Origin: Clostridiales bacterium
Lineage (GTDB): Bacteria; Bacillota; Clostridia; Peptostreptococcales; Anaerovoracaceae
Length of the DNA: 64,000 nt
Reading direction: 5' to 3'
NCBI GenBank assembly: GCA_009776955.1
Contig: WRMW01000002.1
Location: 1-64,000, forward strand
In this document: positions 1 through 42,684 of the stretch, in pieces
How the letters are laid out: the number at the start of each line of letters is the position of its first letter
How positions within the stretch are numbered: position 1 is the first letter of the stretch
Position numbers and translations under genes: made by a program
Notes under the pieces: generated by a model
What the model was told of the DNA's origin: nothing
The model's input: only the letters and a program-made list of their open reading frames with translations
The model's database searches: none

Positions 1-3000
1 TCCCCTATGTCGTCGCCCGTCAGGGTGTAGGTCGTGCCGGTCGCGCCCGGTATGGCCACGCCGCCCCTGTACCATTGGTAGGCGCGGTCGGTGAGGTCCA
101 CGCCTGGTATGGTCTGACCGCCAGGGCTGGCGACGGCACGCAAGGCGTCAAGCCCGCCTATGCCCAGCTCGTCGCCGTACTGGGGCGCACCGGAGCGGCC
201 GTGCTCTATCGTGATGGCGCCGGCAAGGGCGGCCATGCTTACCGCGATGGTGAATGAAGTCATGCTTGGCAAGGTGTTGTAAATATTGTATGCAGACACA
301 TTAAAAGCGTAAGTCCATGTATATGGGGGCATGGACGTGCCTGGAACAGGAGCGCCAGAGACATTGCCGTCCGAACCAAGAGAGAAGCCAGGCGGAAGAT
401 TGCCGCCAATGTGATTCCATGTGATTGGTTGCGTACCCGTCGCCTCAAGCTGCACCTCGTAATCCGCCCCTACCCATGCGGCCGGAAGCGGCGAGGTCGT
501 GGTGATGGCGGCCGGCGCCCTGTCGACAATCTCCACAACGACGTTTATCGCTATGTTCTCGTAATTCGTGAAGCCGCTTACCGTCACGGGTATGGTGGCC
601 GTATTTCCTATGTTATCCGGCTCGACAAGTCCTGCTATTATATTGAACCTTAAATCGCTGGTGTTCGTCATAGAAGGCGGTTGGGGCACAGGCCCGGTCA
701 CCACTATCACAGGGTCGCCGGTCGGGGCGCCAGGAGCATAAGCTGCGGTGCCGCCTGTCGCCGCATACTCGCTTACCAAGGACGCAAGGGCCACGAGCTG
801 CCGCGTGCCGCTGTCTTGGTAATGTATTTCTATCGGCCCGTGCTCTATGGGCGCCACTGTCGCCTTTTCGATCTCGGCCGACAGACCGAAGTGCGCGTTG
901 GCGTCGGTCAGTGACGGCAGTATGTAGCAGTCCGCGGCAGAGCCGTCAAGCTCCCATTCCACGATGGTGACGGGCTTGTCCGCGCCGGCATTCGCATTCG
1001 CAAACTCCGCTTCGATAATCTCAATGGTGACGTTGCCGATATCGTCTGTAAGCAGGCCGGTCGCTATCGTCGCCTCCACCATGGATGTGGCGTCGATGTC
1101 GCCGTCGTAGACCTTGCTCGGCTCTATGCTTACGCTTATGTCTGTAGGCGCAAGCTGCCTGCGCGCCACGGGGCCGACCGCAGAGGCCGCTACGGAGCCT
1201 GTGCAGTTCGCAGCGGTGATGACCACATGGATTGCCGAGTCTATATCCTCAGCGCCGAGGGTGTAGGTCGCGCCGGTCGCACCGCTTATCGCCACACCGC
1301 CACGGTACCAAGTATACGTAATTGTGCCCGGAACCACGCCGGGGTCGGCAGGCCCTACAGGCACATCCTCCACTATGGTCAGGATCCCGCCGTATACGGC
1401 ATCGCCGTCAATGCTTATCTCGCCTTCGAGCGCGGACGCGCTTATGTCTATAGTGAAGCTCCTCGTGTGCGTAGCTGCCTGCGGCGTACCCGCCCTGCCT
1501 GTCGCCATTATCGTGAATGTGTAAGGCCCTGCAGTTTGCGATGTAGGCGTGCCAGATATAAGGCCTGTGGCCGCGTCGAGCGAAAGCCCTACCGGAAGCG
1601 CGCCACTTGAAACGCCCCAGGTGATGGGCCGAGTGCCGGTCGCGACAAGCTGCACGCCTGTCGAATCGTACGGCGCCCCAACTATGCCCGCAGGCAGGGA
1701 TGACGTCACTATATACGGCGGCGCGTCGTCGACAAGCCTTATGGTAAGGGTCAGTGTCACGGCGCTGTGGTTGTTGAGGCCGGTGACCGCCACTGCGATG
1801 TCAGCCGTGTCGCCGATGCTTGAAGCCGTCAAGCCAGACGCAACATCAAACGAAAGCACGCCGACAGAGCTTACCGCCGTTCCGCTCGCAAGTATGTTCT
1901 GCGGGTCGTCGATTCCATCCGGCACGAGCACATAGACAGGATTGTCGCCGCTTACCGCATAATCGCTTATCGCGAATAGCTGCGCCAGATCGATGGTGCG
2001 TGGCCGCTCGGACGGATTCCGCTCGGCTTCGTAATGCGTATCAGCTGTTTCGTCAAGCTCAAGCGTTCCCGCCGTGATGGTGGCGCCTGTGACCGTAAGA
2101 GAGGTCTGCGGGGTGAAAACGCCGCCCGCCATAGCGCCGAGCCTGTAAAGCCCTTCGCCGTTTCCGTCAAGCGAAAGGTTTACAAGGGCTGTATGCGTGC
2201 CCACGTTTGAGCCGCTGAACGACACCGGCGCGGTAACGACCCTGACGCCGCCCGTATTGTTTACTTCATTATATATGTCCGCCGAAAGCAGTCCCGTCGC
2301 CACCGGCGCGCCGACCTCATGGTCCGTGGTCGCCGTGGCATCACCGTCAAAGGGCTTGGTAAGGGTGTAATCGTCGCCTTGCGTCACGCTTACCGCCCTA
2401 GGCGTCGCGGCGAGCGTCGGAGCGGATGTCAATGTGCCGTTAGTGTTCTCGGCGGTGACGGTGACGTGAATCGTGCTCCCGATATCGTCCCCTGTAACGG
2501 TGTAGGTCGTGCCTGTCGCGCCTGTTATCTCCACGCCGCCACGATGCCATTGATAAGTAACCGTGCCTATATTCACGCCCGCCACGCTCGGCGTAAACGT
2601 TCCTGTCACCGTCAGTTCGTCGCCGTATTGCGGAGAGCCAGTATAGCCGCTTACCACAGGCGTGCCGTTCAGGTTCGCCCTGCCCACCACGATCCTGAAG
2701 TCGCCGAAATCATAGCCGGCGCCGCCACTATATTCATTCTCCGCCAATACCGTGAAAATGAATTCGCCTGCCGTAGTCGGGGTTCCGTCTATCGTCCCGT
2801 CCGAACGCAATACTAGCCCTGGCGGGAAGTTGCCAGACGATTGGCTCCATGTGATGGGTCTTGTGCCTCTGGCTTGAAGCTCGACAGGGGCATAGACAAG
2901 CCCCACCGTGCCGCTTTGCAGATTGTTGTTTTCAATAATAATGGTGGGAGGCGCGTCGTCCGCGATAGTCACCACGACATTGACGATGCCGTTTTCGTAG

Positions 3001-6000: not shown

Positions 6001-7010
6001 TCCGCGCCGCCCGCATCCGCGGCACCGCTGTGTATGATCTGGAAAGTGCCGCCTGTCAGCGTCGCGTAGCTACGCCATTCATATGAGGGGTCTCCGAGCG
6101 GCAAGCCTGCCGGCAATGTGCCAAGCCCCGCCGTCGCAGCCGTTAGCCCCTCGCCGTAGACGAAAGAGCCTGTGACGGTGACCTGCCCTGTAAGCAATGC
6201 CCTGTCTGTATATATCGGTTCGCTGACGGCGCTTATGGGCGAACCGTCCTGCACCGCCGTTTCCTTGATGCGGGCCTGGAACAGATATGCGGTGTTCGGT
6301 GCGAGATTCATAAACGATGCGCTGTCCTGCCAATCGTCATCATCGTTCATCCCTGCGCCGGTGTATATCCTGTACTCCGCATACTGTATCGTATTGAGCA
6401 CAATGCTGCCCACTGTACGGCTCGCCATGGTCGGGGCGTCGGGCGTCTGCGGCGAGGTTCTTCTTGCGACAGGCGCAGTTGCCGCAGAGCGAACAGTGCC
6501 CTGAGAAACATCCGAGGAAACGATTACGTATATGCCGTGCCCTATGGCCGTGTCGACGTTTATCTGATAGGTGGGCACGCTCGTGGTCGTTATCGGGGTG
6601 TCCGCGAACCCGCCGCCGTTGGCTATCATCCAGGTATATGAAAGCGTGCCGACTATGTTGTCGGGCACCGCCGTAAGGGTCTCTCCGTATATGGCGTCGC
6701 CTGTGATTTCCACCGTTCCTGAAATCGCGGCGCTCTCTACCGTGATGGTCACGCCACGCGTCGACTTGCCGCCTTCGTTCTCAGCCGCGACCGTGAACGT
6801 GAACCTTCCATTTTGTATCGGCACTCCAAAGATTTCGCCGTCTTCCGAAATCTCCAATCCTGCCGGTATCGGGAACTGCGGGCTTACTACGAGGCTCCAT
6901 TCGATCGGCTCGTCGCCCGTCGCTGCAAGGAGCTCGCTGTACGCCTCGCCCACGGTGGCGTTCGGGAGGCTCGATGTCGTAATGATGGGCGCTATGACGC
7001 CACGCACCGT
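1..7010 (-). repeat. Array of He_PIG-like Ig, WYRGG Ig-like and YDG-like domains
   Basis: Five putative Ig domains carry the signature LPxxxVGxxY...PITWS...LPxGLxLxxxxGxIxGxP. They lie near 6.9, 4.3, 2.85, 1.6 and 0.4 kb. Most are followed by a segment with YGxxLTV, WYRGGxxIxGATG and TYTLxxxDI. YDG-like modules (VxKVYDGTxxxGTG) lie near 5.85, 5.57, 5.30 and 5.03 kb, and looser ones near 3.8, 3.5, 2.35 and 1.1 kb. The order Ig, WYRGG, YDG, beta spacer repeats about every 1.2-1.5 kb, so this is a second-order tandem repeat that runs out of the window. Confidence 0.8.
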
Positions 7011-10000
7011 GCAAGTGATGCCGACAGTGGTTTCCACTACCCTCGTATGCCTGTTCGCGAAACCGACGTCACCGTTAATCGGCTCGTCCTCTATAGCGTC
7101 ATGCCATACATACCTGAAACCGTCCGCAGTCGCGCTCGATGCCGTGGCCGTGATGACGAGCACGCCGCCCGACAGAACCACGGCGCCGGACGATATGGGC
7201 GCACCGCCATAGGTGGCGCTTATCGAGCCAGTGACGCCAGCCTCTGCGGTCAGCGAGAAGCCTATGGTGAAGTAGTCTATATCCGCGCTGCCCGGCGGGT
7301 TGTCTGTATCAATATCTATGCCGGTGTACACAGAGCCTTCGTACACTTTCCATATGCCGCCGTCCACGCCGGCGCTGACTGTGCTGCCCGTGCCTACCAT
7401 AGGCCAAACGACGCTTTCATCGCCGCTGAGCTTCAGCGTGAAGCTCTTGCCATGCCCATCCCATGGATTGCCGTCTAGATTTACATTCAGCGACGCCGTT
7501 TGGAAATCTATTTCGGCGCTGCCTACGTCGTCGTTTATCACGATGTCGATGCCGCTGTATGCGCCGCCGACATAGACTTTCCAAGTGCCGTTCAACACGC
7601 CCGCCTCCACGGTGCCCGCCGCAGCATCTGTCATGCCCGCCCTCATAATGCTTTCATAGCCGCTCATCCTCAGCTCGAAATCCTTGCCGTGGTCGGCCCA
7701 AGGCATACCGTCCCTCTTTACGCTAAGCGTCGCCGTATGATAATGAAGCTCGATGGTGCCGTCATCCTCTATGACAAGGCCGGTATTGTAGTCGCCCTCG
7801 TAGACCGTCCATGAGCCGCCAGGCACCGCCGCCGTCATTATGTCCACGCCCTCAAGCAATTCTATTATTACGATAAGCCCTTCGTTGAAAGTCTGCACAA
7901 GCTTGAGGTCCCTGTTGTGGTCTGGCCATAGGTCGCCGTCCTTGTACACCTCAAGAGTTATTTCGTAGGAGAGCCCAAGATAGTCGGGCGGAACCACGAT
8001 GTCGTTTCTAAGGCCGGGCAGGTAATCCGGCATATACGCCCAAGGCGCATTTGTCCTGAAGTGCTCTGGGAACGCCGTGCCGTTCCGCAGGGATGCGGCA
8101 GTCCGGCTAAGGCCGTCCGGAAGCGCGGCGCCCGGGACGACTACGGTGTTGATGTCCATGTCGGCGAACGCGCCGTTGTTTGCGAGCCCTGTACCGTTGC
8201 CCGACACGCGGCCTATCGATGTCGCGCCGCTTGCGATAAAGACCCTTTCGTTCAGAGCGACATTGTCCGTAACGCTTCCGCCCGCAGCCACTTGCCCCAC
8301 TATGCCGCCGACAAAGGTGTTGCCCTGAACAGAGCTTGCAGACCATGTGTGCTTCACGCTGCTGCCAGCCCCTGTCACAAGACCCGCCACTCCGCCGATG
8401 CTGCTGCCTGTGCCGTTGACCGCGCCCATGGAGTAGGAGTCCTCGACCGAAGCGCCGGCCTCTATCCTCCCTGCCACCCCGCCTACATTGTTGATGCCCG
8501 TAACAGGAATCTTGGTGAAGCTGCCACGCACGGCCGAGCCAGACCCGGTGATGATGCCCACTATGCCGCCTACGGTGTTGGCGGCGCCAGCGCCCGTGCC
8601 TGTGACTGAACCTGTGGGATTGCAATTTTCGATAAGGGCGCCAGCCTCGACCCGCCCTGCTATGCCGCCTATGCCGGTCACGCCTGAGATGGCGCCGGAC
8701 GAATCGCTGCCGCTGATGACTGTGCCACTGCCCGTGACGAACCCCGCGATACCGCCGCCATTGTTGAGGTTGGCGCCGCCGACCGTAGCCGCCGAACTGG
8801 TGTTCGTGATGGCCGCGCCGCCCTGAAGCTGCCCGACAATGCCGCCGACGCGCGCGTTTGCGTTATTGCCGAAAGTGATGACGCCTGATGCCGATGAACC
8901 CGTGATGGCGGCTGTCGGACCTGTCACAAGGCCAGCGATAATTCCAGCATATGTCGTGCCTGTCACGTTATGCGTGATGTTCGCGCCTTCCACTTTGAGG
9001 TTTTGCACCCTGCCGTCCGCGATATGGCCGAACAGGCCGTTGTAAGCTCCTGTATCCGCGTTGATAAACAGATTTGTGATCGTGTATTCGTTTCCGCTTA
9101 GCGAACCCGCAAATGTGCCCGAGAAAGGATTTGCGGCTGTCCCGATGGGTATCCAGCCCTTGCCGTCGTTCCAGGCGGCGCCGCTCCCGTAAATGCTGAG
9201 GTTGATATCTGCGCCGAGGAAGATAGTCCTTCCTGTGAAGCCGAAGACGCCATCGTTCACGAGCATGGCAAGCCCGGCAAGCTCCTCTGGCGTACGTATA
9301 ATATATGAAGGCGCATTTGTGTTTTGATAGTACCATTGGTCGTTTGGCTCGCCCGGGACGATGCGGAGATGCTCCGGCATCGGGGAGTACGGCTCGCCGA
9401 GGCCTGGCAAGAGTCCCGCCGCGTAGACCCATGGGTTTATCCTGAGCTGCAATGGGAAGGCGCTGCTTTCCTGCAACTGCGGCCTGCTTCTGCTCACCCC
9501 GTCGGCGCCGCTTTCGTTGGGATCCAATGTTACTTTGGAAATATCCATCAGGCTGAAGCCAATATTGTTTGTAAGCCCTGTGGCGTTCCCTGCCACACGA
9601 CCTATAAGCGCGGAGCCGCTTGTTGAGTTCACGTTCGTGTTGAGAGCGGCGCTGTTTGTGACGCTGCCGCCTGCACCGACCTGGCCGGCGATGCCGCCGA
9701 CGTACGATGTGCCTTGGATGCCGCCCGTCGCCCAGCTGTTGCTGACCCTGCTGCCTGTGCCGGTGACATTTCCGACCACGCCGCCTGCGTCAGACGCCGT
9801 TGCCGCGACTGAGCCGTCCACCCAGGTGTTCTCTATGACTGCGCCGTCCGCTATGCCGCCCGCTATGCCGCCTATGCGTCCGGCGCCGGAAGCCGTGCCG
9901 GTGAAGTAGCTCGTCCTTACGGCGCTGCTGCCGCCTGTGACATAGCCCGCCACGCCGCCGACGTCGGAGCCGCCGCTGACAGCGCCCGAAGCGTTGGACG

Positions 10001-13000: not shown

Positions 13001-16000
13001 TGTTCAGCCAGCCTGCCACCCCACCGATATTGGTGTTGCCTGTCACAGGCCCTGTCGCCGTGCTACCCCTTATCGCGGAGTTCTGGCCCATGACCTGGCC
13101 TGCTATACCGCCAAGATACCGACCGCCTCTGACTATGACGTCAGAAGTGCAGTCCACCACGGTCGCTGCCGCCTGAACCTGCCCGACAATGCCGCCCACA
13201 CGCGGATTGGTTTGGTTTGTGCTTACGGAAAGATAAATCTCGCCCTCCGCATGGCAGTCCGTTATCGAAGCCCCTACACCATTCACCACGCCTGCGATAA
13301 CGCCTGCGCTCATCTGGGTGGCGGCGGTCGCATTGGAGACGATGTACACACCCGTGAGGCTTAGGTTCTGCACCTTGCCGCCAGTGCCTATATAACCGAA
13401 AAGGCCATTGTGGGCACGGTAGTTCGCATTGTCGTTGATAGTCATCTGCGATATGGTGAAGCCGCCACCGTCAAAAACGCCTCTGAATGGAGCGGCGGCC
13501 AAAACGCCTATGGGGTTCCAGCCTTTGGCTCCGAAGAACGTGTTGGGGGTGGCATCGTACCTGTAATCGTACAGGCTTATATCATCCATAAGGTTGATAG
13601 TCCTGCCGCTGAAGTTGATTGCGGGCGTCCCGTTGACAAGCTGTGAAAGGCCTGCGAGCTCGTCGGCAGTCCATATCTCAAAGACGGTGGCGTCCGGGTT
13701 TTTGTTGTACCACCAGAGGTCTGGCTGCCCTGGTTGCGAACGTATGTGCGCGGGCATTTCGTACGGCACCCCATTCAGCCCTGGCAGGAAGCCTGCTGCA
13801 TATGTCCACGGATGTTGCGTAAGCTGTGCGGGGTATTGACCCCCTTCACGCAAGTTTTCACTGGTTCTGTTCGCGCCGTCTGTGTTTGCGGCGTTGTTTG
13901 TTATTGTCCTAGGCGTGCCGACGGTCGGGTCGGCGGCGTTGGTGTTGTTGTATCTGGCCTGCATGCCGACAAAGGCTATATTGTTGCTCAGCCCTACATT
14001 GTTGCCCGCTACACGCCCGTGGTTCGCTGCCGCGTCGGCTATCTTCAGGACGGCAGGATTCAGCGCGGCGCTGTTTGCCACACCGCCGCCTGCGTCGACC
14101 CGCCCCACAATGCCGCCAACATAGTCATTGCCACGGACATATGATATCGACCATGAATTGTTTACCCTTGCAGTCGTTCCCGCGATATAGCCCACGATGC
14201 CGCCGACATTGGTGCCCGTGCCCATGACGGCGCCTGTGGAATAGCTGTTTTCTATTGTGGCATTCGCTGCGTTGACATAGCCCGCGATGCCGCCGACGTT
14301 TGCCACGCCGCTTACCGCTGCTTCGGACACTCCCCTTGCCAGGGTCACACCCGTGCCCTGCATATGCCCCACGATGCCGCCGATATGGGCGGTGGCTGTG
14401 GTGGTCGAAACCGTGCCCGAAACGCTGATGTCCTCGATGCGGGCGGCATTGACGTAGCCCGCCAATATGCCCACGTACGAATCGCCTGCACCTGTATAAG
14501 TCAATGCCACGTTTGCATTTTCGATAACGAGGTCGTGTACGTAGCCGTTATCGCCTATATAGCCAAAGAGCCCTGCGTGTTGCGTCGTGGCGTTTATGGT
14601 CAGGCCTGTGACGGTGCGGCCGTTTCCGTCAAAGATGCCACGGAACGGGGTGGTGCCGTTCAAGCCTATTGGAGTCCAGTTTGGATATGAGCCTAGGTCT
14701 ATGTCCGCCGCAAGGATGACTTGCCTGTTCAGGAATGAATCGCCGCCGTTGACCGAGGCCGCAAACGTGGCGAGTTCCGCAGCCGTGGCGATTGTGAGTA
14801 TGGCGGGATCGTCCTCCGCAATAATATGGTCGGGCATCGGGAATGGCTCGCCGAGACCAGGAAGGGAGCCGGCCGTATAGACCCATGGGGGCTGCCTAAG
14901 AGCTCCAGGGAACGCCCCTGGCCCTTGCAGTACCTGCCCTGTCCTGTCCGCTCCGTCCACGCCTGTCTCGGAAGATGTGGTGGGCTTGGGCGTCGTAGCA
15001 TTATGGAAGATATCCATATCGGCAAAGGCCACATTGCCGAACAGACCTACTGCGTTTGTGGTGACCCTGCCTACGTTCGCGGCTCCGTTTGCCGTTGCCG
15101 TGACGCTCTCGTTCAGCGCCGCGCTGTCCGCCACACCGCCCGCGCCTGCAGCGATAGCCCCCGCCAGTCCGCCGACACCTTGGGCGCCACTGACTGTGGC
15201 TATGGACCATGTGTTGTAGACCCTGCTGCCCGCGCCGTTGATATAGCCGACCACGCCGCCCACATTGTTCCGTCCGTTTACTTCACCGGTGGAGAAGCTG
15301 TTTCTTACAACGGAGCCGGCACGAACCTCGCCGACAAGACCGCCTGTGTACCCGCTTGTGGTGCTTGTGCCTGTATATGAAATAGTCGAATCTACGACTT
15401 GGGAGTTTTCTATTATAGAGCTCACGTCAGCGACGGCCACGACGATGCCGCCCCTCGCGTTTGCGCCGGCCGCATCGAATGTGATTGTCGCATTCTCGAC
15501 CTTGACGTTCCTTACTATTGCATTGTTGTTTATATATCCGAATAGCCCGTTGTAATCCCTTTGCGCCGAACCGACATCATTTATATATAGGCCTGTGATG
15601 GCATGGCCCGTGCCGTTGAACGTGCCTTGGAAAGAAGCGGCGGCGCTTGTGCCTATCGGGGTCCAGCCCTTGCCGGAGCCATAGGCGGAAAGGCTGATCG
15701 GGTTTGCGAGATTTACTGTAAGCCCGATAAAGGGGAAGCCGCCGTTCACAAGCTCGGCGAACTCGGCAAGCTCGACCGCCGTGGTAATCGAGAAGCTTGT
15801 CGCCGACGGGTCGGTCCCAAGCCATGTGAACTTCGATGGGTCGTAGCCCGAATACGCAAGGTGCGTAGGCATCGCGACCCCTGCGCCAAGGCCGGGCAGC
15901 ATGCCCATTTCATAGACCCATGGAGCCTGTCCAAAACCGGCGGGGAAAGCCAAGGGCGTATGGAGTATGAGCACGTCCATGCTTTGGCCGTCCAGACCTG

Positions 16001-19000
16001 TATAAGTCGGAGCAAGAGGTGTCTTGATAGTGCCGGTCGTAGCGCTTGTGGCACCGACTCTGATATTCATAGCCGACCATGCAATATTTTCTGACAGTTC
16101 AGCGGCACTCCCTGTTCCCGATACCCGTCCAACACCCGCAACTCCAGCACCTGTCTTAAAGACGCTTATGTTAAGGGCGGCGTTGCCTGTTACGCTGCCG
16201 CCTGTAGCCACTTGGCCAACTACGCCACCGACGTTCAGGGCCCCTTGCATGGTGCCCGATGCCCAAGACGAAATTACTGCGCTGCCGTTGTCGACATAGC
16301 CCGCCACGCCGCCTACCTGCTGCCTGCCAGTGATGTCTACGCCAGACCAGACGTTCCTTGCCTCGGCGCCTGTGTCTAGGCTACCCACGATGCCGCCCGT
16401 GCGGGTGGTCGTATTCGCGGCGATGGTGTAGGTGATGGTCCCTGTGGCGCTGCAGCCTTCGATGACAGTGCCTGCGCCTTCGGCAAGCGCTACCACCATG
16501 CCAATACGGCCTGGAAAATTGGGGGCCCATGTGATGCTCGTTCCTTGCACATTGAGGTTTCGCACTGAGGCGCCACCCGATATGTATCCGAACAAGCCAT
16601 GACGCCGTCTCGTGGTAGCTGTGGCTGTGCGGTCATCGTCGATAGACAGCTCGGAAATAGTATGCCCATTCCCTTCAAATGTGCCACGGAACGGATTGGC
16701 GGCGGCATCTGCGAAGTTTGCGCCGCCTATGGGCGTCCAGCCTCGTCCATCCTCCCATGAAGCGTTTGTGGTGGCATAGTAGCTCAAGTCAATATTCGCC
16801 ACGAGGTCGATGGTCTTGCCGTCGAAGTCTATGCCTTCGTTTACGAGCTTTGCCAACCCTGCAAGCTCGTCGGCGTTTGTGATGGTAAAGACGTCGGCGG
16901 ACGGGTCGAGGTAGTACCACAGAGTCCGTGGGCCGTCACCGACAAGATGCGCGGGCATGGGCATAACAGGTGCGCCAAGTCCGGGCAGCGCTTCGGGAAG
17001 GTAGTACCACGGCGAGCCGGGGTTTGCCTCCCTGCTTGTAAACCATGAGTTTGAAGTGGTAAAGCCCGAAGCTTCTTTAAGGTCACCTTTGCCACGGTTC
17101 AGGCCGTCCACTTCAGTAAGGCCAGAGGCGGGGGTTTTTGGCGCGCCGGCGGTACCGTTATACCTTATATCCATGTCCTCAAACGCTATGTTGCCGGAGA
17201 TCCTCGCCGCGTTGCCGCCCGGCCCCTGGGTAGCAGGGGCGCTCCCTACGACACGACCGAGGTTTGCGACGGCATTGTTTCTCTTTATGACGCTTCTGTT
17301 CAGCGCGGCGCAGTCGACCACCATGCCGTTGCCGCTGATGTCGCCGACTATGCCGCCGACATAGTCATTGGCCTGCACGGAGCCCGATGCCCAGCTTCTT
17401 CTAACTTGGCCGTTGAGCGTCAGGCCTGTATTGTTTTGAGTCAGCCCGTACAGCCAGCCCACTACGCCGCCGGCTCTCGTCCCCGTCGCTATGATATCGC
17501 CCATGCTATAGCAGTCATCAACTATCGTGTTGTTGGTTTCGACACGGCCTGCCACTCCGCCAACGTTATTCGCGCCCCGGACTGCGCCTGTGGAATAGCT
17601 TCTGCGCAAAGGCGCGTTCCCGCCTGAGCCATTGACCGATCCGGCGATGCCGCCCACATAGTCCCCGTCGCTACGTATATAGCCTGTGGAATAGCAATCC
17701 TCCACGATGCCTGTTTCCGTTGCCACGCCTGCTGTTGCGCTTATTAGGCCTATCCGGCCTGTGATGCCGCCGACATAGGCGCCCGTGCCGGTGACATTAC
17801 CGGTGGTGTGACTCTCCCTTATGGCACTGTTCGTTCTGACCCGTCCCGCGATGCCGCCGACGTAGCCTACGCCTTCCACTGTCGCAGTGACACGGCTGCC
17901 CGTCACGATGGAGCTGTCCTGCATCTCGCCAGTTATTCCGCCGACGCGGGCATTGGCGTTTGTGCCTGTATATGAGACAAGGCCGGTGACCGTGCTGTTC
18001 TCTATCTGCGTGCCCGAGTCTACGATATAGCCCGCCACTCCGCCGACATAAGAATCGCCGCCCGGAGCATTCGCTCGGATGTTCGCATTCTCGAGCCTGA
18101 CGCCTTGTATGACCGCGCCGTTGTTCACGTAGCCAAACAGGCCGTTGTACAGCCTTTGGCCTGTGCTTGTGTCGTTTATGAACAGACCTGCTATGGTTCT
18201 AAGACTGCCATTGAACGTGCCGCTGAACGGGGTGTCGGCATCAAGGCCTATGGGTATCCATCCCTTGCCGCCGTTCCACGACGCGCCGTAGATATGAAGC
18301 TCTATATTGGCGGCGAGGGTTATGACCTTTCCGCTGAAATCTGTCTCGCCCGAGTTCACGATCTCGGCAAGCCCGGCAAGCTGGTCTGCGGTGGTGATGG
18401 TGTAGCCTGAGGCCGTCGGGTTCTGATAATACCACTGGGAGTCCGGCGTCCCCGGGAGAAGGCCAAGATGGGCAGGCATCGGCATGGCCGTGCCGAGCCC
18501 CGGCAAAGACCCTGTGCTATAAGTCCATGGGAACGTGACAAGGGGTTCGGGGAAGCCGCCTGCGCCTTGCAGGGCGCCCCTGCCCCTGGACGCGCCTTCG
18601 ATGGTCGCATCCCCCGGCGTGAACGTCTGTTTGCTGTACGTCATGGCGTCGAATGCTATATTGCCGGACAAGCCTGTGGCATTGCCCGCGACCCTGCCGA
18701 AGTTTGCGGGGTTGGCTGCGGTGGCGACGACCCCTTGGTTGAGAGCGGCGCTGCTTGAAACGCTGCCCCCCGTGCCTACCTGCCCAGCCACGCCGCCGAC
18801 ACGGTCCGCGCCTGTTATTGTTCCCGATGCCCACGCAGCCACCACGACGCCGCCGTCGATATAGCCGACGATGCCGCCGACATTGCTGCCCGCGCCTGTC
18901 ACGTTGCCTGTAGCATATGCGTTGTCCACGCTGCCGCCGCCGGTGACATAGCCCGCCACGCCGCCTGCGTACTGCCTGCCGTTGACTGTGGCGGCGGAGC

Positions 19001-22000
19001 CGACTTCCGTAAGGGAAGCGCCTGCCTGAACCTGCCCTGCGATGCCGCCGATGCGAACGTTGTCATTTGTGCCCGCATAGGAAACGGTGCCTGTGACGAA
19101 GCTCCACTCTATGTATGCGCCTGCGCCCTCGATGACGCCAGCGATGATGCCTGCGCACGAAACGGCGGGGGCAACGGCGGAGCTGAATGTGATGTTCGCT
19201 CCCTCTACCCTGAGATCCACGACACGGCCGCCGGTGATATGGCCGAACAGCCCGTTGCATTCCCTCTGGGGAGCGGATGCGTCATTTATGTATAGCCCGG
19301 TGATGGTGTAGCCGCCGCCGTTGAGGGTGCCGGCAAAGGGATGTTCGCCGGTGCCTATGGGGAGCCAACCCTTGCCGGCGTTCCAGCCAGAGCCGTAAGA
19401 GCCGAGGCTGATGTCCGATGCGAGGATGACGGTCTGGCCGTCGAAATCGACGAGGCCGTCGCTTACTATTTCCGCAAGGCCGGCAAGCTCATCAGCCGTG
19501 GCGATGGTGAAGGTCGTAAGGCTTGGGTTGCGTCCGTACCAGATGGCGTTCGGCTTGCCGGCCGTGATAGCCAGATGGGGCGGCATCGGGACCGCCGCTC
19601 CGTGCCCGGGAAGGCTGCCCGCCTCATAAGTCCATGGCGATATGCCAAACCCTACCGGGATGCCGCCCTCTGTCCACGAAGGGAAGGCCGCGAGTATCTG
19701 TACGCTTGCGCCGCCTCGGCTCGTGCCGTCCACCCCTGTAGGCGAAGGCGCGACCGCCTTTGATATCTGCATATCGGCATAGGCTATATTGTCCGTCAGG
19801 GCGCCTGCGCTCCCTGCCACGCGGCCGAGGTTGCCCGTGCCGCCGGCCGTCCTTGCGACGCTCGGGTTCAATGCGGCGTTTTGCCGCACGATGGCATTGG
19901 CCGAGCCAAGCTGACCCGCCACGCCGCCTGCATAGTCCGCACCTTGGACGGAGCTTGTGGACCAGTTGCCTATGGCGGCACCGTTGTTCGCTTCGCCTGC
20001 GGCACCGCCGCCGACGATGAAGCCCGCCACGCCGCCTACGCCGTTTCCTGTGCCTGTGACGGCACCCATTGAATAACTGTATTCGACCTTGCCGCCAGCA
20101 CCTACATGGCCTACGGCGCCGCCGACCTGCGCGGCGCCGCCCACATTGCCTGTGGCGGAGCTGCCGCTTATGACTGCGTTCGGGCCTGTGACGTTGCCTG
20201 CCACGCCGCCGACTTGACTGCCTATGCTAGTGACAGCGCCTGTGGAGTAGCTGCTTTCCACCCTGCTGCCTGAGCCTCCGACAATGCCCGCCACGCCGCC
20301 GACGCCTGTGCCGGCACCCGCGCTCGTGGCACTGACCGCGCCTGTGGATGAGCTGCCGCTTACGGTGGCGGCCGAGAGCTCGCCCGCAACGCCGCCGACG
20401 CCCGACCTGCCGCTTACGGTGGCTGCAGAACTGACGTTCTCTATGGCCGTGCCTGACTGAGCCATTCCGACCACACCACCGACGCGCGCATCATCGCTCG
20501 CGCCTGTGTACGCGATGGAGCCAGTGACGGAGCCGCCCTCTATCTGAGAGCCTGCCCCTGTTATGAATCCTGCGATTATTCCCAAATAGGACGCGCCGGC
20601 ATTGTTGGACACGACGCTCGCGCCCTGCACATTGAGGTTGCGAACAGCGCCGCCAGTCCCGACGTAGCCGAAGAGCCCGTTGTACGCCCTCTGCGGCGCG
20701 GTGATGTCGTTTATGTAAAGACCCGTGACGGTGTAGGTATTGCCGTTGAACACGCCACGGAACATATTGGTCGTCGATATCCCTATAGGCGACCAGCCCC
20801 TGCCGCCGTTCCATGCGGCGCCGTACAGGGTCAGGTCGATATTGTCTATAAGGTTGAGCGTCCTGCCGGCGAAGGCGATCCCTTCATCGTTGACAAGCTC
20901 CGCAAGGCCAGCAAGGTCTGCCGCCGTGCTTATCGTGAATACGCTCGCGTTCGGGTTTTGGTAATACCATAGGTTGTTCGGCTCGCCCGACGTCGGTATA
21001 AGGTGAGAGGGCATCGGGTACGACACGTTGAGGCCTATGCCGGGAAGGGCACCGTAGGCATAGCCCCACGGGTATTGTATGAACTGCGCGGGGAAGCCGC
21101 CGACAACTTGCAGGCTCGTCGCGTTCCTGCTCGCGCCGTCCACGCCTGTCTCGGAAGCGGTGGCGCCAGGAATCTTTGTCGTGCCGCCAGTGTATGTCGT
21201 GGCATCGACCCCATGCCTGAGATCCATGCCGGAAAAGCCTATGTTGTTTGAGAGGGCGCCGCTGCTTGCGCCCGCCACCCTGCCTACGACCGTGTCCGCG
21301 TTCGTGACCGAGAGGACGCTCGTGTTCAACGCGGCGCTTCTTTCCACGGTCGCGCCTGATGCCGCCTGCCCGACTATGCCGCCAACGTTCGACAGTCCCC
21401 TGACAGCGCTGATAGACCAGGTGGAGAACACCCTGCCGCCCGAGACCATGCCCGCGATTCCGCCGACGTTGTTCCCTGTGCCTATGACCATGCCTGTGGA
21501 ATATGAGTGATCCGCCCTGCCGCTAGACCCGACAAAGCCTGCCACGCCGCCGACGTATTGGCGGCCGCTGACGGCGGCTTCCGAAATGCCGGCGTTGACG
21601 GTGGCGTTCGAACTGCGTACCTCGCCGACCAAGCCGCCTACGCGCGCCTCATCGCTCGTGCCCGTGTACGACACGGAACCCGTGACCACGTTCCAGTCGA
21701 CCAGGGCGCCCGAACCTTCTACCAGTCCTGCCACCCCTCCGACATATGCCGTGCCGTCCGCGTTCGCCTTTATGTCCGCGTTCACTATCCTAAGGCCTTC
21801 GACCACGCCCCCATCGATATATCCGAACAGGCCGTTGTACTGCCTGCGGCCTGTGATGGTGTCGTCTATGTACAGCCCCGTAATGTCGTACCTTGCGGTA
21901 ATCCTTCCGCCGGAACGTGTCCTCGCTCCGTCAAAGTACCCTTTGAACACGGCATCGACCGTGCCGCCATCGCCAATGGGTATCCAGCCCCTGCCCTCGT

Positions 22001-22547
22001 TCCACAATTCGCCGTAGGCTCCGAGGTTTATATCGTTCGTGAGCCTGATGACTTGGTCTTCAAAACTGTATTGTGAAATCCCCAGTGGAAGGTCCGGGCC
22101 GCCGTTGACTATGAAAGCAAGAGCAGCAAGCTGGTCTGCCGTAGCTATTTGATAAGTTTCCTCGCCAGGGCCGGAGAACCAGCTGAAGTCGAGCATGTCC
22201 AGCCCAGAGCTCATCGGCTCGAGCAGACCCATCATCTCGATGATCTCTTCTTCGTCTTCTTCTTCCGGCTCCTCTATGGGAGGCTCTTCTGGGTCTTCAG
22301 GAGGCGTAGGCTCAGGCTCGTCGCCGCCGGGCTCACCGGGGTCATCGCCAGGGTCGCCGCCCTCTGGCTCGGACGGCTCGCCGCTTTCTGGCAGCTGCTC
22401 CTCGGTGCCGGGCGCGTCATCGCCGGACGCATAGACCGTGCTTGCGTTCAAGGGCACCATGGTAATCGCCAGAGCGAATACCAGCACCCAAGCCATCACC
22501 CGGGTGAAGATCCTGCTCCCTATTAACGATAATCCATTCTCCCTCAT
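1..22547 (-). CDS. Giant secreted GLUG/Ig-like repeat surface protein, partial (no stop in window)
   Basis: A single frame stays open from an ATG at 22547 to the left edge, at least 7,515 codons. I checked the frame at the start, near 18000, 15000, 10983, 8000 and 4983, and at position 3. A GAGGAG ribosome site lies just upstream. The N-terminus has a basic stretch, a hydrophobic segment (AWVLVFALAITMV) and a likely cleavage after residue 40, so the product is exported. Then come an acidic Glu/Pro/Gly linker, eleven GLUG-type units (about 22.2-8.0 kb), three short beta repeats (about 8.0-7.3 kb), an FN3-like segment, and repeated He_PIG-like Ig and YDG-like domains to the edge. Proteins of this build are usually surface adhesins or matrix proteins; that role is inferred. 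The C-terminus and any LPXTG or SLH anchor lie outside the window. Confidence 0.9.
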   Translation of the reverse strand, partial: MRENGLSLIGSRIFTRVMAWVLVFALAITMVPLNASTVYASGDDAPGTEEQLPESGEPSEPEGGDPGDDPGEPGGDEPEPTPPEDPEEPPIEEPEEEDEEEIIEMMGLLEPMSSGLDMLDFSWFSGPGEETYQIATADQLAALAFIVNGGPDLPLGISQYSFEDQVIRLTNDINLGAYGELWNEGRGWIPIGDGGTVDAVFKGYFDGARTRSGGRITARYDITGLYIDDTITGRRQYNGLFGYIDGGVVEGLRIVNADIKANADGTAYVGGVAGLVEGSGALVDWNVVTGSVSYTGTSDEARVGGLVGEVRSSNATVNAGISEAAVSGRQYVGGVAGFVGSSGRADHSYSTGMVIGTGNNVGGIAGMVSGGRVFSTWSISAVRGLSNVGGIVGQAASGATVERSAALNTSVLSVTNADTVVGRVAGASSGALSNNIGFSGMDLRHGVDATTYTGGTTKIPGATASETGVDGASRNATSLQVVGGFPAQFIQYPWGYAYGALPGIGLNVSYPMPSHLIPTSGEPNNLWYYQNPNASVFTISTAADLAGLAELVNDEGIAFAGRTLNLIDNIDLTLYGAAWNGGRGWSPIGISTTNMFRGVFNGNTYTVTGLYINDITAPQRAYNGLFGYVGTGGAVRNLNVQGASVVSNNAGASYLGIIAGFITGAGSQIEGGSVTGSIAYTGASDDARVGGVVGMAQSGTAIENVSSAATVSGRSGVGGVAGELSAATVSGSSSTGAVSATSAGAGTGVGGVAGIVGGSGSRVESSYSTGAVTSIGSQVGGVAGNVTGPNAVISGSSATGNVGGAAQVGGAVGHVGAGGKVEYSYSMGAVTGTGNGVGGVAGFIVGGGAAGEANNGAAIGNWSTSSVQGADYAGGVAGQLGSANAIVRQNAALNPSVARTAGGTGNLGRVAGSAGALTDNIAYADMQISKAVAPSPTGVDGTSRGGASVQILAAFPSWTEGGIPVGFGISPWTYEAGSLPGHGAAVPMPPHLAITAGKPNAIWYGRNPSLTTFTIATADELAGLAEIVSDGLVDFDGQTVILASDISLGSYGSGWNAGKGWLPIGTGEHPFAGTLNGGGYTITGLYINDASAPQRECNGLFGHITGGRVVDLRVEGANITFSSAVAPAVSCAGIIAGVIEGAGAYIEWSFVTGTVSYAGTNDNVRIGGIAGQVQAGASLTEVGSAATVNGRQYAGGVAGYVTGGGSVDNAYATGNVTGAGSNVGGIVGYIDGGVVVAAWASGTITGADRVGGVAGQVGTGGSVSSSAALNQGVVATAANPANFGRVAGNATGLSGNIAFDAMTYSKQTFTPGDATIEGASRGRGALQGAGGFPEPLVTFPWTYSTGSLPGLGTAMPMPAHLGLLPGTPDSQWYYQNPTASGYTITTADQLAGLAEIVNSGETDFSGKVITLAANIELHIYGASWNGGKGWIPIGLDADTPFSGTFNGSLRTIAGLFINDTSTGQRLYNGLFGYVNNGAVIQGVRLENANIRANAPGGDSYVGGVAGYIVDSGTQIENSTVTGLVSYTGTNANARVGGITGEMQDSSIVTGSRVTATVEGVGYVGGIAGRVRTNSAIRESHTTGNVTGTGAYVGGITGRIGLISATAGVATETGIVEDCYSTGYIRSDGDYVGGIAGSVNGSGGNAPLRRSYSTGAVRGANNVGGVAGRVETNNTIVDDCYSMGDIIATGTRAGGVVGWLYGLTQNNTGLTLNGQVRRSWASGSVQANDYVGGIVGDISGNGMVVDCAALNRSVIKRNNAVANLGRVVGSAPATQGPGGNAARISGNIAFEDMDIRYNGTAGAPKTPASGLTEVDGLNRGKGDLKEASGFTTSNSWFTSREANPGSPWYYLPEALPGLGAPVMPMPAHLVGDGPRTLWYYLDPSADVFTITNADELAGLAKLVNEGIDFDGKTIDLVANIDLSYYATTNASWEDGRGWTPIGGANFADAAANPFRGTFEGNGHTISELSIDDDRTATATTRRRHGLFGYISGGASVRNLNVQGTSITWAPNFPGRIGMVVALAEGAGTVIEGCSATGTITYTIAANTTTRTGGIVGSLDTGAEARNVWSGVDITGRQQVGGVAGYVDNGSAVISSWASGTMQGALNVGGVVGQVATGGSVTGNAALNISVFKTGAGVAGVGRVSGTGSAAELSENIAWSAMNIRVGATSATTGTIKTPLAPTYTGLDGQSMDVLILHTPLAFPAGFGQAPWVYEMGMLPGLGAGVAMPTHLAYSGYDPSKFTWLGTDPSATSFSITTAVELAEFAELVNGGFPFIGLTVNLANPISLSAYGSGKGWTPIGTSAAASFQGTFNGTGHAITGLYINDVGSAQRDYNGLFGYINNNAIVRNVKVENATITFDAAGANARGGIVVAVADVSSIIENSQVVDSTISYTGTSTTSGYTGGLVGEVRAGSVVRNSFSTGEVNGRNNVGGVVGYINGAGSRVYNTWSIATVSGAQGVGGLAGAIAAGAGGVADSAALNESVTATANGAANVGRVTTNAVGLFGNVAFADMDIFHNATTPKPTTSSETGVDGADRTGQVLQGPGAFPGALRQPPWVYTAGSLPGLGEPFPMPDHIIAEDDPAILTIATAAELATFAASVNGGDSFLNRQVILAADIDLGSYPNWTPIGLNGTTPFRGIFDGNGRTVTGLTINATTQHAGLFGYIGDNGYVHDLVIENANVALTYTGAGDSYVGILAGYVNAARIEDISVSGTVSTTTATAHIGGIVGHMQGTGVTLARGVSEAAVSGVANVGGIAGYVNAANATIENSYSTGAVMGTGTNVGGIVGYIAGTTARVNNSWSISYVRGNDYVGGIVGRVDAGGGVANSAALNPAVLKIADAAANHGRVAGNNVGLSNNIAFVGMQARYNNTNAADPTVGTPRTITNNAANTDGANRTSENLREGGQYPAQLTQHPWTYAAGFLPGLNGVPYEMPAHIRSQPGQPDLWWYNKNPDATVFEIWTADELAGLSQLVNGTPAINFSGRTINLMDDISLYDYRYDATPNTFFGAKGWNPIGVLAAAPFRGVFDGGGFTISQMTINDNANYRAHNGLFGYIGTGGKVQNLSLTGVYIVSNATAATQMSAGVIAGVVNGVGASITDCHAEGEIYLSVSTNQTNPRVGGIVGQVQAAATVVDCTSDVIVRGGRYLGGIAGQVMGQNSAIRGSTATGPVTGNTNIGGVAGWLNNGVIENSQATGTVTSTQAAAAANYVGGIAGLVDAGGRVETSFFSGVVTALGDDIGGVAGRVTGAGSTIRSSGSTGNVTGRSNIGGVVGYVAAVVVQNSYSTGRVMGSGTAVGGVAGQINGAAARVNNSWSTSYVRGENNVGGIVGNNAQGGVTNSAALNSDVLRITNTNSGYGRVVGLQGGTNLSGNVAFGGMNIRYGNTNPNVDNPLFGTPKTITTTATMTQVDGETRNKGALQWGPAYPGVLRQVPWIYEPGYLPGIVEPIEMPAHLMLSPGDPDDGWYYQSPTSNSFMIYTADELAGLAVLVNGSPAINFSGRTVTLMADIDLSDYGLGASAWNGGRGWIPIGRNANDANAVSATNRFQGTFNGNNKIVAGLYINDTATGQRQYNGLFGYVTGGGRVRNLRVEDASITFNHAGTAQQPAYGGIIAAWLDGAGSMIDGCYVSGTINYSAATNNVRVGGVVGYVGANGSIENSVSEADVNGRNYVGGIAGIITGTNATIRGSRVTGTVSGAISDVGGIVGRIDTGGSVESCYFSGTVSGAANDVGGIVGRITGAGTSVQSSASSGDVSGAANVGGVAGYVNTPAIVRNVYSTGDVTGTGASVGGVAGQLNGATARVENSWSISRVQGANNVGGIAGQLATNAGVVNSAALNEFIIKTTATEANLGRVVGNISGTATTGNVGFAEANVTHGGTQKNIVSGGTLADGEDRSRTTLQGASGFPSQLRQSPWVYAIGFLPGHGEAYPMPEHLMLFEGMPDSRWYHQNPNASRFIISTADELAGLAELVNGTPSITFLGKTISLIADINLSSYGLGASSWNSGRGWIPIGTNTPVAARFQGTFEGNENVITGLYIDSTGAGQRAYNGLFGYVSGGGRIHDLTVRNANITFNAGGTSYGGGIAGYIEGAGSAIEGGGASGAISYTGTSADARVGGLAGQIGVGVAITGSRSSAVVSGNSNVGGVAGYVTGTNARILNTRATGASSGTGSYIGGIAGYVGAGGRVETSNASGAVSGGSDVGGVAGYVTGGSSAVRTSYFTGTASGAGRIGGIAGGIADGAVIENTWVDGSVAATASDAGGVVGNVTGTGSRVSNSWATGGIQGTSYVGGIAGQVGAGGSVTNSAALNTNVNSTSGSALIGRVAGNATGLTNNIGFSLMDISKVTLDPNESGADGVSRSRPQLQESSAFPLQLRINPWVYAAGLLPGLGEPYSPMPEHLRIVPGEPNDQWYYQNTNAPSYIIRTPEELAGLAMLVNDGVFGFTGRTIFLGADINLSIYGSGAAWNDGKGWIPIGTAANPFSGTFAGSLSGNEYTITNLFINADTGAYNGLFGHIADGRVQNLKVEGANITHNVTGTTYAGIIAGLVTGPTAAITGSSASGVITFGNNANARVGGIVGQLQGGAAITNTSSAATVGGANLNNGGGIAGFVTGSGTVISGSDSSGAISGVTGIGGIAGRVEAGALIENCNPTGSVTGTGAGAANTVGGIVGIITGSGSAVRGSFTKIPVTGINNVGGVAGRIEAGASVEDSYSMGAVNGTGSSIGGVAGLVTGAGSSVKHTWSASSVQGNTFVGGIVGQVAAGGSVTDNVALNERVFIASGATSIGRVSGNGTGLANNGAFADMDINTVVVPGAALPDGLSRTAASLRNGTAFPEHFRTNAPWAYMPDYLPGLRNDIVVPPDYLGLSYEITLEVYKDGDLWPDHNRDLKLVQTFNEGLIVIIELLEGVDIMTAAVPGGSWTVYEGDYNTGLVIEDDGTIELHYHTATLSVKRDGMPWADHGKDFELRMSGYESIMRAGMTDAAAGTVEAGVLNGTWKVYVGGAYSGIDIVINDDVGSAEIDFQTASLNVNLDGNPWDGHGKSFTLKLSGDESVVWPMVGTGSTVSAGVDGGIWKVYEGSVYTGIDIDTDNPPGSADIDYFTIGFSLTAEAGVTGSISATYGGAPISSGAVVLSGGVLVITATASSATADGFRYVWHDAIEDEPINGDVGFANRHTRVVETTVGITCTVRGVIAPIITTSSLPNATVGEAYSELLAATGDEPIEWSLVVSPQFPIPAGLEISEDGEIFGVPIQNGRFTFTVAAENEGGKSTRGVTITVESAAISGTVEITGDAIYGETLTAVPDNIVGTLSYTWMIANGGGFADTPITTTSVPTYQINVDTAIGHGIYVIVSSDVSQGTVRSAATAPVARRTSPQTPDAPTMASRTVGSIVLNTIQYAEYRIYTGAGMNDDDDWQDSASFMNLAPNTAYLFQARIKETAVQDGSPISAVSEPIYTDRALLTGQVTVTGSFVYGEGLTAATAGLGTLPAGLPLGDPSYEWRSYATLTGGTFQIIHSGAADAGGAEYELQAADVGRYITVAVTTSETSGVRETTPRQLVAPRTLTITQGGYGVTKVYDGTNSPGTGSGTLGGLDGVINNDDISIVAVPGNYTGVDVGSAYTVTATISLEGTPATAYVPASPTLTITGASITQLDLTVERGTYTVTKEYDSDTTPGTGNAALLIVDTIVPADVGIVTVADEPAAFTSAAVGNYTINVGISLAGNPVKVANYNLLTTTLTGVPASITTKSVTVTQGGYNVSKVYDGTNDAGTGAGLLGITGIEDVTVTVVPTPRDFGTSNVGSTHTVTIDLALDGAGSGNYSLTNDTITLTNASITQRPVTVLVGDFEVRKEFDGTVSAGTGDEALLDVAQDAGVGIVQTDESYVWVSAAADSYPSLNSGNVGSYTVNVTLSLAGDSARIANYDLQTLTLTGVPAFIDTAKLDVEHTVHVQYDDVRDYTESLADLLLDYAISSDTPLFGTVAVVDSYNILAGVPVVSGGNLTFGIANNLDDTYTGREAVITIPVSGLHNYHGAEIHVIVAVTDSAPPVIMTESLPDAAVGAPYNVTGVLLDAIGTKPITWSLVSGTGSLPDGLILNPSTGIISGTPTMQAAGTFSFTVRATNQYGDPVQSGSHDMPLSIELSIAKLSGDITIGGFTDAPQYGDTLTVQGTAALTSDIAGVNIGSLSYQWYRNGTAIAGETGATYTLGPDDIDALITVDVRSANTDPDYPRLSPAVGPVSGKQLLSTDIVGSVSAAGRTYNGNADATGLALADIVSGLEIEDEGKVFIIVNEAVFDNRNVGNGKTITITDWELDGDASGGYALPALPFTHTGLSANITQATLTSIDVTATSRAYNGDVDVVVNIAPLTADNGVMSNTAGTLDDVTLDLVDAEFADPNVANGISIIYSWELGGTDAGNYEPPDVTNYPRTANITRAPLPTLQNIPKTVQYDDHGQQEVTDAELAAIVAAHLAAGDTPVFTLGTITGINASLIASHAYTGGRLTFSIDTTLSSADSGRSVTIPMNVTGFRNYENGIVNVVVTIADDAPPTIIIENNNLQSGTVGLVYAPVELQARGTRPITWSQSSGNFPPGLVLRSDGTIDGTPTTAGEFIFTVLAENEYSGGAGYDFGDFRIVVGRANLNGTPVVSGYTGSPQYGDELTVTGTFTPSVAGVNIGTVTYQWHRGGVEITGATGTTYTVTGDDIGSTIHVTVTAENTNGTLTSAPTLAATPRAVSVTQGDDYTLTKPFDGDATATTDHEVGAPVATGLLSADIYNEVNNTGGVRVVTAPVSFSGSNVGTHTALVNLSLDGNGEGLYRLGAMAGGVFTPQTSLTVTGATITAGTLELDETADTHYEAERNPSERPRTIDLAQLFAISDYAVSGDNPVYVLVPDGIDDPQNILASGTAVSSVGVLSFDVASGLTASSIGDTADIAVAVTGLNNHSAVTLTLTIRLVDDAPPYIVTSSLPAGIVGAPYDSTGVQLVATGTRPITWGVSSGALPVGLSLDAATGLISGTPTSQTAGPYTFTIMATGRAGTPQAATHTRSFTIDISASALEGEISIDGDAVYGGILTIVEDVPVGPADPGVVPGTITYTWYRGGVAISGATGATYTLGAEDIDSAIHVVITAANCTGSVAASAVGPVARRQLAPTDISVSIEPSKVYDGDIDATSMVEATIATGLLTDDIGNVTIEIIEAEFANANAGADKPVTIVEWELDGSAADCYILPSLTDANAHFGLSAEIEKATVAPIEHGPIEIHYQDSGTRQLVALASLVSEYAATGGTAAYAPGAPTGDPVIVVTGPVPQPPSMTNTSDLRFNIIAGLVEPDNIGNTATIPVTVSGFTNYENIAINVVVEIVDRAPAAITTTSPLPAAWVGADYEVQLEATGTQPITWNHIGGNLPPGFSLGSDGNVSGAPVPGTSMPPYTWTYAFNVSAYNIYNTLPSMTSFTIAVSMAALAGAITIEHGRSGAPQYGDELGIGGLDALRAVASPGGQTIPGVDLTDRAYQWYRGGVAIPGATGTTYTLTGDDIG
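7290..7980 (-). repeat. Three short beta repeats of the KDGxPWxDHGK type
   Basis: Between the GLUG array and the Ig-like region, a module of about 80 residues occurs three times, at roughly 7.93, 7.70 and 7.46 kb. Shared features are (K/R)DGxxWxDHxK, a following LxxSGxES segment, a Gly-Thr-Trp-Lys-Val-Tyr-like turn (WKVYxG) and a closing YxGIDI with acidic residues. I do not match it to a named family with certainty. It resembles small beta-sandwich spacers in Bacillota surface proteins. Confidence 0.65.
8000..22190 (-). repeat. Eleven tandem GLUG-type units inside the giant surface protein
   Basis: The unit recurs about every 1.0-1.55 kb. It opens with WYYQNPxAxxFxIxTA then ELAGLAELVNxG, seen near 22150, 20960, 19520, 18420, 16890, 15800, 14790, 13690, 12130, 10700 and 9310. 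It continues with DIDLSxYG, W(T/I)PIG, GLYINDxxxxQRxYNGLFGY and several GLUG-like turns (VGGVAGxV, xNSYSTG). It then has an SAALN...GRV(A/S)G segment and closes with PWxYxxGxLPGLG and MPxHL. Units near 15.8, 14.8 and 13.7 kb are shorter and have fewer GLUG turns. GLUG motifs are known from bacterial surface and IgA-protease-like proteins and are expected to form a right-handed beta solenoid; that fold is inferred. Confidence 0.85.
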
Positions 22548-22756
22548 TGTTCTCCTCTACCCTTGTTTTTCAGTCCACATGAAACCGAACGGCAAAGTAC
22601 ACCGCAAAATACATGGGAGTGCTGATGGCGCATCTCCCTCTCATGCATTATGTTACCACATTACGCAGGTTTTAAACATATATAGCAAAGGTTTTTTTTA
22701 TAACACTTTTGTTGCTGTTTTGTGACATTTTATGTTAAAAACTCAAGGAAATTTCG
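22548..22756 (-). promoter_or_regulatory. AT-rich leader region upstream of the giant surface gene
   Basis: These 209 bases separate the dusB stop from the giant gene start. The dusB-proximal half is strongly AT-rich and contains several -10-like strings (TTATAA, TAATGT), but I find no well-spaced sigma-70 promoter and no clear rho-independent terminator for dusB. The GAGGAG ribosome site of the giant gene sits at the left end. A separate promoter here is likely but unproven. Confidence 0.35.
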
Positions 22757-41976: not shown

Positions 41977-42684
41977 TTACCCCTCATCCAGCAAACGGTA
42001 GCCGACCCCTATTTCCGTAAAGATGTATTTTGGCTCCGCAGGGTCGTCCCCTATCTTGCGGCGGATATTTGCCATGTTGACACGGAGTATGCGATTGTCG
42101 TTTGTCATGGCAGGCCCCCAAATCTCCTTTAGCAAATAGTCGTAGGTGAGCACCCTCCCCGCATTGCGGCCGAGCAACGCCACAATCCGAAACTCATTGT
42201 GCGTCAGCCGCGCATTTTTCCCGCCAATAAGGACTTGATGCTTGTCAAAGTCGATTGTCATGTCGCCCATGTTCAGCTTCCCGGTGAAAACGCCTTCTGT
42301 GCCGACCCCGGCGGACCTATAGCGCCGTATGGCCGTCCGAACGCGTGCCATCAGCTCCGAGGCCCCAAACGGTTTCGTGATATAGTCGTCGGCGCCGAGG
42401 TCGAGGGCCTGCACCTTCTCACGCTCATGCATACGCGCGGAAATGACTATTATCGGCATTTCGCTCCAAGTCCTGACGGACTCTATTATTGACACGCCAT
42501 CCATGTCCGGCAGCCCGAGGTCCAACAACACCAAGTCCGGCGAGCACGACATTATCATGGAATAGGCCTCTGCTCCCGAGCTTGCCGTGACGACGTCATA
42601 GCCGTTGGCTGTAAGCAGGATCGACAAAAACCGGCATATGCTTTTCTCGTCGTCAACAATCAATACCCTATCTTTTAGCGCCAT
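41977..42684 (-). CDS. OmpR/KdpE-family response regulator
   Basis: 235 residues. The receiver domain has VLIVDDEKSI, the phospho-acceptor Asp in LVLLDLGLPDMDG, the Thr/Ser switch VISAR and the Lys in ITKPFG. A winged-helix output domain follows (LTHNEFRIVALL, VLTYDYLLKEIWG, LRVNMANIRRKIG, GVGYRL). The closest subfamily by pattern is KdpE. GGGAGG lies 9 bases before the ATG at 42684; longer frames upstream are not supported. It overlaps the histidine kinase end by 17 bases, so the pair is translationally coupled. No kdpFABC potassium pump genes are in the window, so the target is unknown. Confidence 0.92.
   Translation of the reverse strand: MALKDRVLIVDDEKSICRFLSILLTANGYDVVTASSGAEAYSMIMSCSPDLVLLDLGLPDMDGVSIIESVRTWSEMPIIVISARMHEREKVQALDLGADDYITKPFGASELMARVRTAIRRYRSAGVGTEGVFTGKLNMGDMTIDFDKHQVLIGGKNARLTHNEFRIVALLGRNAGRVLTYDYLLKEIWGPAMTNDNRILRVNMANIRRKIGDDPAEPKYIFTEIGVGYRLLDEG

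Follow-up and report, generated by a model that had tools for sequence, protein, structure and literature searches.

A giant secreted protein cut by a contig edge, and a set of large secreted proteins sharing a C-terminal module, in a Clostridiales bacterium

Giant surface proteins are known in bacteria, and how the cells hold them is often unclear. In Clostridioides difficile, the CWP family comprises 28 paralogues in strain 630 that share wall-binding motifs (PMC3080850), and the length that a bacterial ORF can reach is illustrated by one of 39,678 aa described in Omnitrophota (Velamenicoccus) (PMC10066038). Two further systems bear on the repeats reported below. In a solved complex the N-terminal domain of the IgA1 protease, which contains a beta-helix of the same kind, touches the Fab of IgA1 and controls access to the active site (PMC7695701), and GLUG proteins of an archaeon have been proposed to act in gut adhesion (PMC9723798). 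Literature searches on GLUG adhesins, giant adhesins of Clostridia and surface proteins of the bacterial family studied here retrieved little beyond the latter paper and a survey of huge proteins (PMC11573180).

The window, i.e. the whole stretch of DNA that was analysed (64,000 nucleotides), comprises bases 1-64000 of contig C2 (WRMW01000002.1) in a metagenome-type draft assembly of 22 contigs and 2.03 Mb (90.9% complete, 0.2% contamination). An earlier, sequence-only reading of the window had described a frame of at least 7,515 codons, running from a signal peptide and still open at the edge. The minus-strand frame was re-translated from its ATG down to base 3 without meeting a stop, which agrees with that description, and since window base 1 is also base 1 of the contig, the frame is truncated by the contig edge and not merely by the window. 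The start is well placed, with a ribosome-binding site and a clear signal peptide (see the table), the pattern of which (AW-LxLxLVFTMxP) recurs in most members of the giant-protein set described below. To call the frame one of the largest in bacteria was an overstatement, given a complete relative of 7,605 aa on contig C6 of the same genome and the Omnitrophota ORF cited above.

Table. Features of the giant ORF and of its neighbour in the window (positions in window coordinates; aa, residues of the giant ORF unless otherwise stated).
Feature	Position	Strand	Remarks
Giant ORF	3..22547	-	ATG at 22547; 7,515 codons; open at contig edge, C-terminus missing
Probable ribosome-binding site, AGAGGAG	22552..22558	-	Purine-rich, 4 bases before the ATG; from sequence
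Signal peptide, aa 1-40	22428..22547	-	...RVMAWVLVFALAITMVPLNASTVYA followed by S; from sequence
Acidic Pro/Glu-rich linker, aa 41-121	22185..22427	-	From sequence
Eleven GLUG modules, aa 122-4870	7938..22184	-	Length 332-516 aa, 36-51% identical to one another (aa); predicted beta-helix fold of the IgA1-protease type
Short beta modules, aa 4871-5186	6990..7937	-	VxLDGxPWxGHxKxFxL...GxWxVYxGxxxTGxDI; from sequence; also in the C6 giant
Array of YDG (PF18657), putative Ig (He_PIG, PF05345) and related beta domains, aa 5187-7515	3..6989	-	Same classes as at the start of C15
Second family member, 1,967 aa, complete	34988..40891	-	Signal peptide, Beta_helix_3 repeats, shared C-module
Shared C-module of the neighbour (its last ~850 aa)	34991..37540	-	In-window copy

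The domain assignments of the giant ORF rest on matches to GLUG (PF07581; 121 bits in the middle third and 22.1 in the first third, with a curated cut-off of 20.5) and to YDG (five stretches, 161 bits, cut-off 25), while the NCBIfam matches, ZmpA and ZirU, stayed below threshold. One GLUG module was modelled with AlphaFold2 from the alignment of all eleven (pLDDT 89.6, pTM 0.91). Among solved structures the model is matched best by N-terminal regions of M26 IgA1 proteases (PDB entries 3n6z, 7uvk, 6xja, 6xjb, 7uvl and 7jgj; Z 26.5-31.6), followed by polysaccharide lyases at Z 17 and below, and a sequence-profile search matched M26 N-terminal regions at E 1e-14 to 4e-12, with the same six entries at E 8e-14 to 4e-12. 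The zinc-metalloprotease motif HExxH is absent from the 7,515 residues read (the unread C-terminus lies outside this search), as it is from the C6 giant and the C15 protein, which ruled out an IgA1 protease; the giant thus resembles the recognition part of the protease without the enzyme. A phage tail fibre was likewise ruled out, by the surrounding housekeeping genes and the signal peptide. Homology to the IgA1 proteases, together with the proposal that GLUG proteins serve as gut adhesins, suggests that the beta-helices would bind a ligand. The earlier interpretation, with a surface function such as adhesion, a matrix, or binding to a partner or host cell, is in part supported, and the product is most likely a surface binding protein.

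The giant gene does not stand alone. A search profile was made from seven large ORFs, taking the final 560 aa of each, and it found this shared C-terminal module (C-module) at 21 places in the genome, 17 of them full-length. Each full-length copy forms the extreme C-terminal end of a large ORF, and the complete ORFs all begin with a signal peptide. One member lies in the window, 12 kb from the giant ORF, and two more (3,035 and 1,641 aa) are found complete and in tandem where C10 and C1 are joined by a 127-base overlap. The set adds up to 55,966 aa or 8.25% of the assembly when the window ORF and a C17 protein with a weak match are included, a figure that is slightly high owing to a few unscreened start positions. 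The larger point, overlooked in the sequence-only reading, is that the giant gene is part of a group of about twenty, which take up about 8% of the assembly, and its product probably belongs to this set of large surface proteins.

The N-terminal parts, or fronts, of the members were assigned by Pfam to GLUG, Beta_helix_3, YDG, PKD, PQQ and Cadherin-like types, with a subtilase in one member. The other complete GLUG proteins (the C6 giant, a 1,682-aa protein on C1 and a 1,547-aa protein at C2:175k) all carry the C-module. In a maximum-likelihood tree of the C-module the front types do not form clades, and well-supported branches require at least 2 or 3 front changes for GLUG, Beta_helix_3, YDG and PKD (the labels of C14b and C1e were assigned without Pfam); C-module and front have thus been recombined. 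The last 127 bases of C17 and C20 are identical and lie inside a C-module, beyond which the two diverge by a few substitutions; judged from the sequences, these near-identical copies suggest a recent duplication or gene conversion.

The paralogues with a full C-module have no LPXTG, hydrophobic or transmembrane (TM) tail at their ends, and no match to SLH (PF00395) was found in the whole assembly. The cell wall-binding domain CWB2 (PF04122) is absent from the window ORF, from C15 and from 13 other members scanned, as well as from the 17 C-modules at E values up to 1. The LPXTG or SLH anchor that had been guessed for the giant is therefore not borne out by its relatives, and it is from these paralogues that we infer its own anchor. 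A search of the genome with PF00746 gave nothing above cut-off, albeit as a weak test, with two clear LPXTG-like tails seen by eye. The subtilase-front member is directly followed by a 1,101-aa secreted protein with LPRTG and a membrane tail (L065:4213-12199), placing both tail types side by side. On C3 (L064:3108-8939) a 1,933-aa YDG-like secreted protein, listed with L017 and L060 (C15), ends in a TM tail and has no C-module, so that the genome also retains conventional tails. The C-module is neutral to basic and so differs in charge from the acidic parts that precede it: in full-module members the C-terminal 850 aa carry a net charge of -5 to +22, and the remainder one of -48 to -574.

In the window frame the last 850 aa have a net charge of -62, consistent with the C-module lying beyond the part read. 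The missing part was looked for among the other contigs. The C15 contig carries a frame that is open at its first base, spans 6,621 aa and ends in the shared C-module, and its YDG/He_PIG repeats give 48 local alignments with the window array, versus 4 for the C6 giant. Among the contig edges examined, only the C2 start and C15 have repeats of this type in an open edge frame. No end-to-end overlap was found between the C2 start and any other contig end, C15 included; MBG_3 units are present in C15 and were not detected in the window part of the giant, and further open C-module stubs lie at the ends of C17 and C20. C15 is the best candidate for the other half, and it is slightly more likely than not that C2 and C15 form one gene, the protein of which would then have at least 14,136 aa.

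The reading to which we give slightly better than even chances is that of a multivalent beta-helix binding protein with a YDG/Ig stalk, held at the surface by the shared C-module. The giant ORF would encode the N-terminal portion of a very large surface protein exported by the Sec route, in which the eleven beta-helix modules, free of the protease motif, would form a long multivalent binding region and the YDG/Ig-like domains behind them would act as a stalk. The missing end would most likely carry the C-module common to other large secreted proteins of the genome, and this module, in place of LPXTG, SLH or a membrane tail, would keep the protein on the cell surface. Four elements are what we infer here: the giant carries the C-module, C15 supplies its missing half, the C-module retains proteins at the surface, and the beta-helices have a ligand. 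Retention is suggested by the position of the module, by its being shared, by its having been recombined with fronts of unrelated kinds, one of them an enzyme, and by the contrast in charge; the several front changes on the module tree indicate that it travels independently of its cargo, as anchors do. On the other hand, an S-layer-like or matrix assembly would fit the C-module as well as anchoring does, and the module could also be a rigid stalk, with something else as the anchor.

The first of these alternatives, in which the C-module is a self-assembling, S-layer-like lattice element that builds a coat or matrix through module-module contacts with the N-terminal parts facing outward, was weighed against the predicted structure. 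A model of the last 600 aa, built from a 17-row alignment, is a string of beta-sandwich domains (pLDDT 81.5, pTM 0.51). Foldseek and VIA-align matched it to generic Ig/cadherin strings and also to the S-layer proteins SbsC and Sap (Z about 7-8), whose assembly domains are in favour of a lattice. However, cadherins and other Ig strings score equally well, so that the S-layer matches are not specific, and since the structural matches are of this generic kind no function was read from them. Pfam applied to the 17 C-modules at E values up to 1 gave scattered single-member matches only and no known wall-binding domain, which would also suit a lattice, as would the presence of about twenty co-encoded copies. 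A sequence search of the PDB with the C-module gave no match, and in an internal-repeat test by profile comparison the best E value was 0.003, too weak to call the domains repeats of one unit. The copies are only about 30-43% identical to the reference copy, which would be unusual for a single lattice, and we regard the lattice as an unlikely alternative to retention.

The other alternative of weight concerns the giant itself, which might be an ordinary giant YDG/GLUG adhesin with a conventional end (TM or LPXTG) on unassembled sequence, the C-module of its paralogues then being irrelevant to it. In line with this, YDG proteins are present in 78 of the bacterial family's 347 genomes screened, with ORFs of up to 6,371 aa in other genera and several TM-type ends, and the present genome itself encodes one sortase, while LPXTG or TM tails are found on some of its large proteins. 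Where the ends of giants from related genera could be read, they were mostly TM tails or Ig-type repeats rather than the C-module, a contrast that speaks for the main reading. (A contig scan with the YDG part yielded a single weak Sedimenticola locus, which was dropped.) The C-module, for its part, had no match in 349 other genomes of the bacterial family, including three congeners (83-86% complete, with more fragmented assemblies), and none was found in the phylum sample (397 other genomes), in the class sample (390 others), on plasmids or in IMG/VR contigs. By these sequence comparisons, giant repeat proteins are nothing unusual in the bacterial family, and what sets this species apart is the shared tail; whether it arose by fast divergence, by loss elsewhere or from an unsampled source is a question raised by its absence from the three congeners and 346 further family genomes. 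Against a conventional end stands the fact that all other complete GLUG proteins of the genome carry the C-module, and such an end for the giant is accordingly considered improbable.

The frame is in any case genuine: it encodes a giant secreted surface protein and is cut by the assembly edge. Its GC3 per 500-codon block stays within 0.64-0.73, with the last 15 codons as the sole exception, and there is no frameshift across 22.5 kb. Among the eleven internal GLUG modules pN is lower than pS in 55 of 55 pairs, i.e. the repetitive protein is under purifying constraint, as expected from the earlier claim that a secreted protein is kept intact by selection, and the modules have pairwise DNA identities of 49-60% (a difference of 40-51%). 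Exact 127-base overlaps between other contig ends (C1/C10 and C17/C20) suggest an assembler with k=127. The longest exact repeat within the giant ORF, 24 bp, is far below that length and too short to have misled such an assembler, which makes collapsed or duplicated repeats unlikely, and no frameshift, the other refuting case named beforehand, was seen. A pseudogene, or a frame kept open by GC content, was ruled out by the GC3 evenness, the repeat length and the pN/pS relation. A reading of the ORF as decaying or as created by the assembly (duplicated or misjoined repeats, or GC bias keeping the frame open) would suit a metagenome-type draft, a repetitive protein and a contig break inside the gene, but in view of the stop-free frame and the divergence of its modules it is very improbable.

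Some further observations concern the contig ends and the remainder of the window. The contig ends C4e, C5e, C8e, C9s, C11e and C14e (L093, L094, L097, L077, L100 and L103) have a common stretch that translates as '...RRIVPLWHSASSFLKLVTTIISYLKKWYESW'; it is probably present in many copies, as an element at which the assembly broke. The starts of C12, C13, C16, C19, C20 and C21 run into poly-Gly/poly-Pro (G or C homopolymer), which is likely sequencing noise. At 51547-52965 the window encodes a secreted protein with repeats of the choline/glucan-binding type (PspA, PspC and glucan-binding repeat are the top NCBIfam matches, none of them reaching the cut-off) and a C-terminal half that by eye is GH25 lysozyme-like. 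A response regulator and a sensor kinase closest to KdpE/KdpD lie at 41977-43744, beside the smaller family member, and no kdp transporter genes were seen adjoining them.

Taken together, a compact genome of 2.0 Mb invests about 8% in one set of proteins, most of which share an otherwise unknown tail behind fronts that range from beta-helices to a subtilase. If the C-module truly retains proteins it would be a new and directly testable way of protein display. More tentatively, it may represent an undescribed, non-covalent means by which very large secreted proteins are held or assembled on a Gram-positive-type cell, used by about twenty proteins in this one species, absent elsewhere among the genomes searched and swapped between unrelated display regions by recombination, and the window gene together with C15 would then encode one such protein, with more than 14,000 residues.

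Several known systems can be set beside this one. With the M26 IgA1 proteases (PF05342) the giant ORF has in common the sequence motif, the predicted beta-helix fold and the character of a Gram-positive-type secreted protein, but the proteases have one copy of the beta-helix, whereas the giant has eleven in tandem and no HExxH in the part read. The Omnitrophota giants are likewise very long single ORFs with a proposed surface or adhesion role; the Velamenicoccus ORF is much longer and has 42 predicted TM helices, and the likeness considered here is one of size and proposed role (PMC10066038). Giant YDG/MBG/Ig repeat proteins found elsewhere in the bacterial family resemble it in size, in signal peptide pattern and in their YDG and Ig-like repeats, but they are without the C-module, their readable ends being mostly TM tails or Ig-type repeats and some LPXTG-like. 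In its organization the set can be compared with the CWP family of C. difficile, where there are likewise tens of paralogues that have one module in common and differ in the rest, and where the CWP repeats mediate surface functions. The CWP proteins carry CWB2 modules, whereas here the shared part is C-terminal, about 850 aa long and predicted to be Ig/cadherin-like, with no PF04122 in the members scanned. By analogy, the C-module set would thus work like the CWP family without being a member of it.
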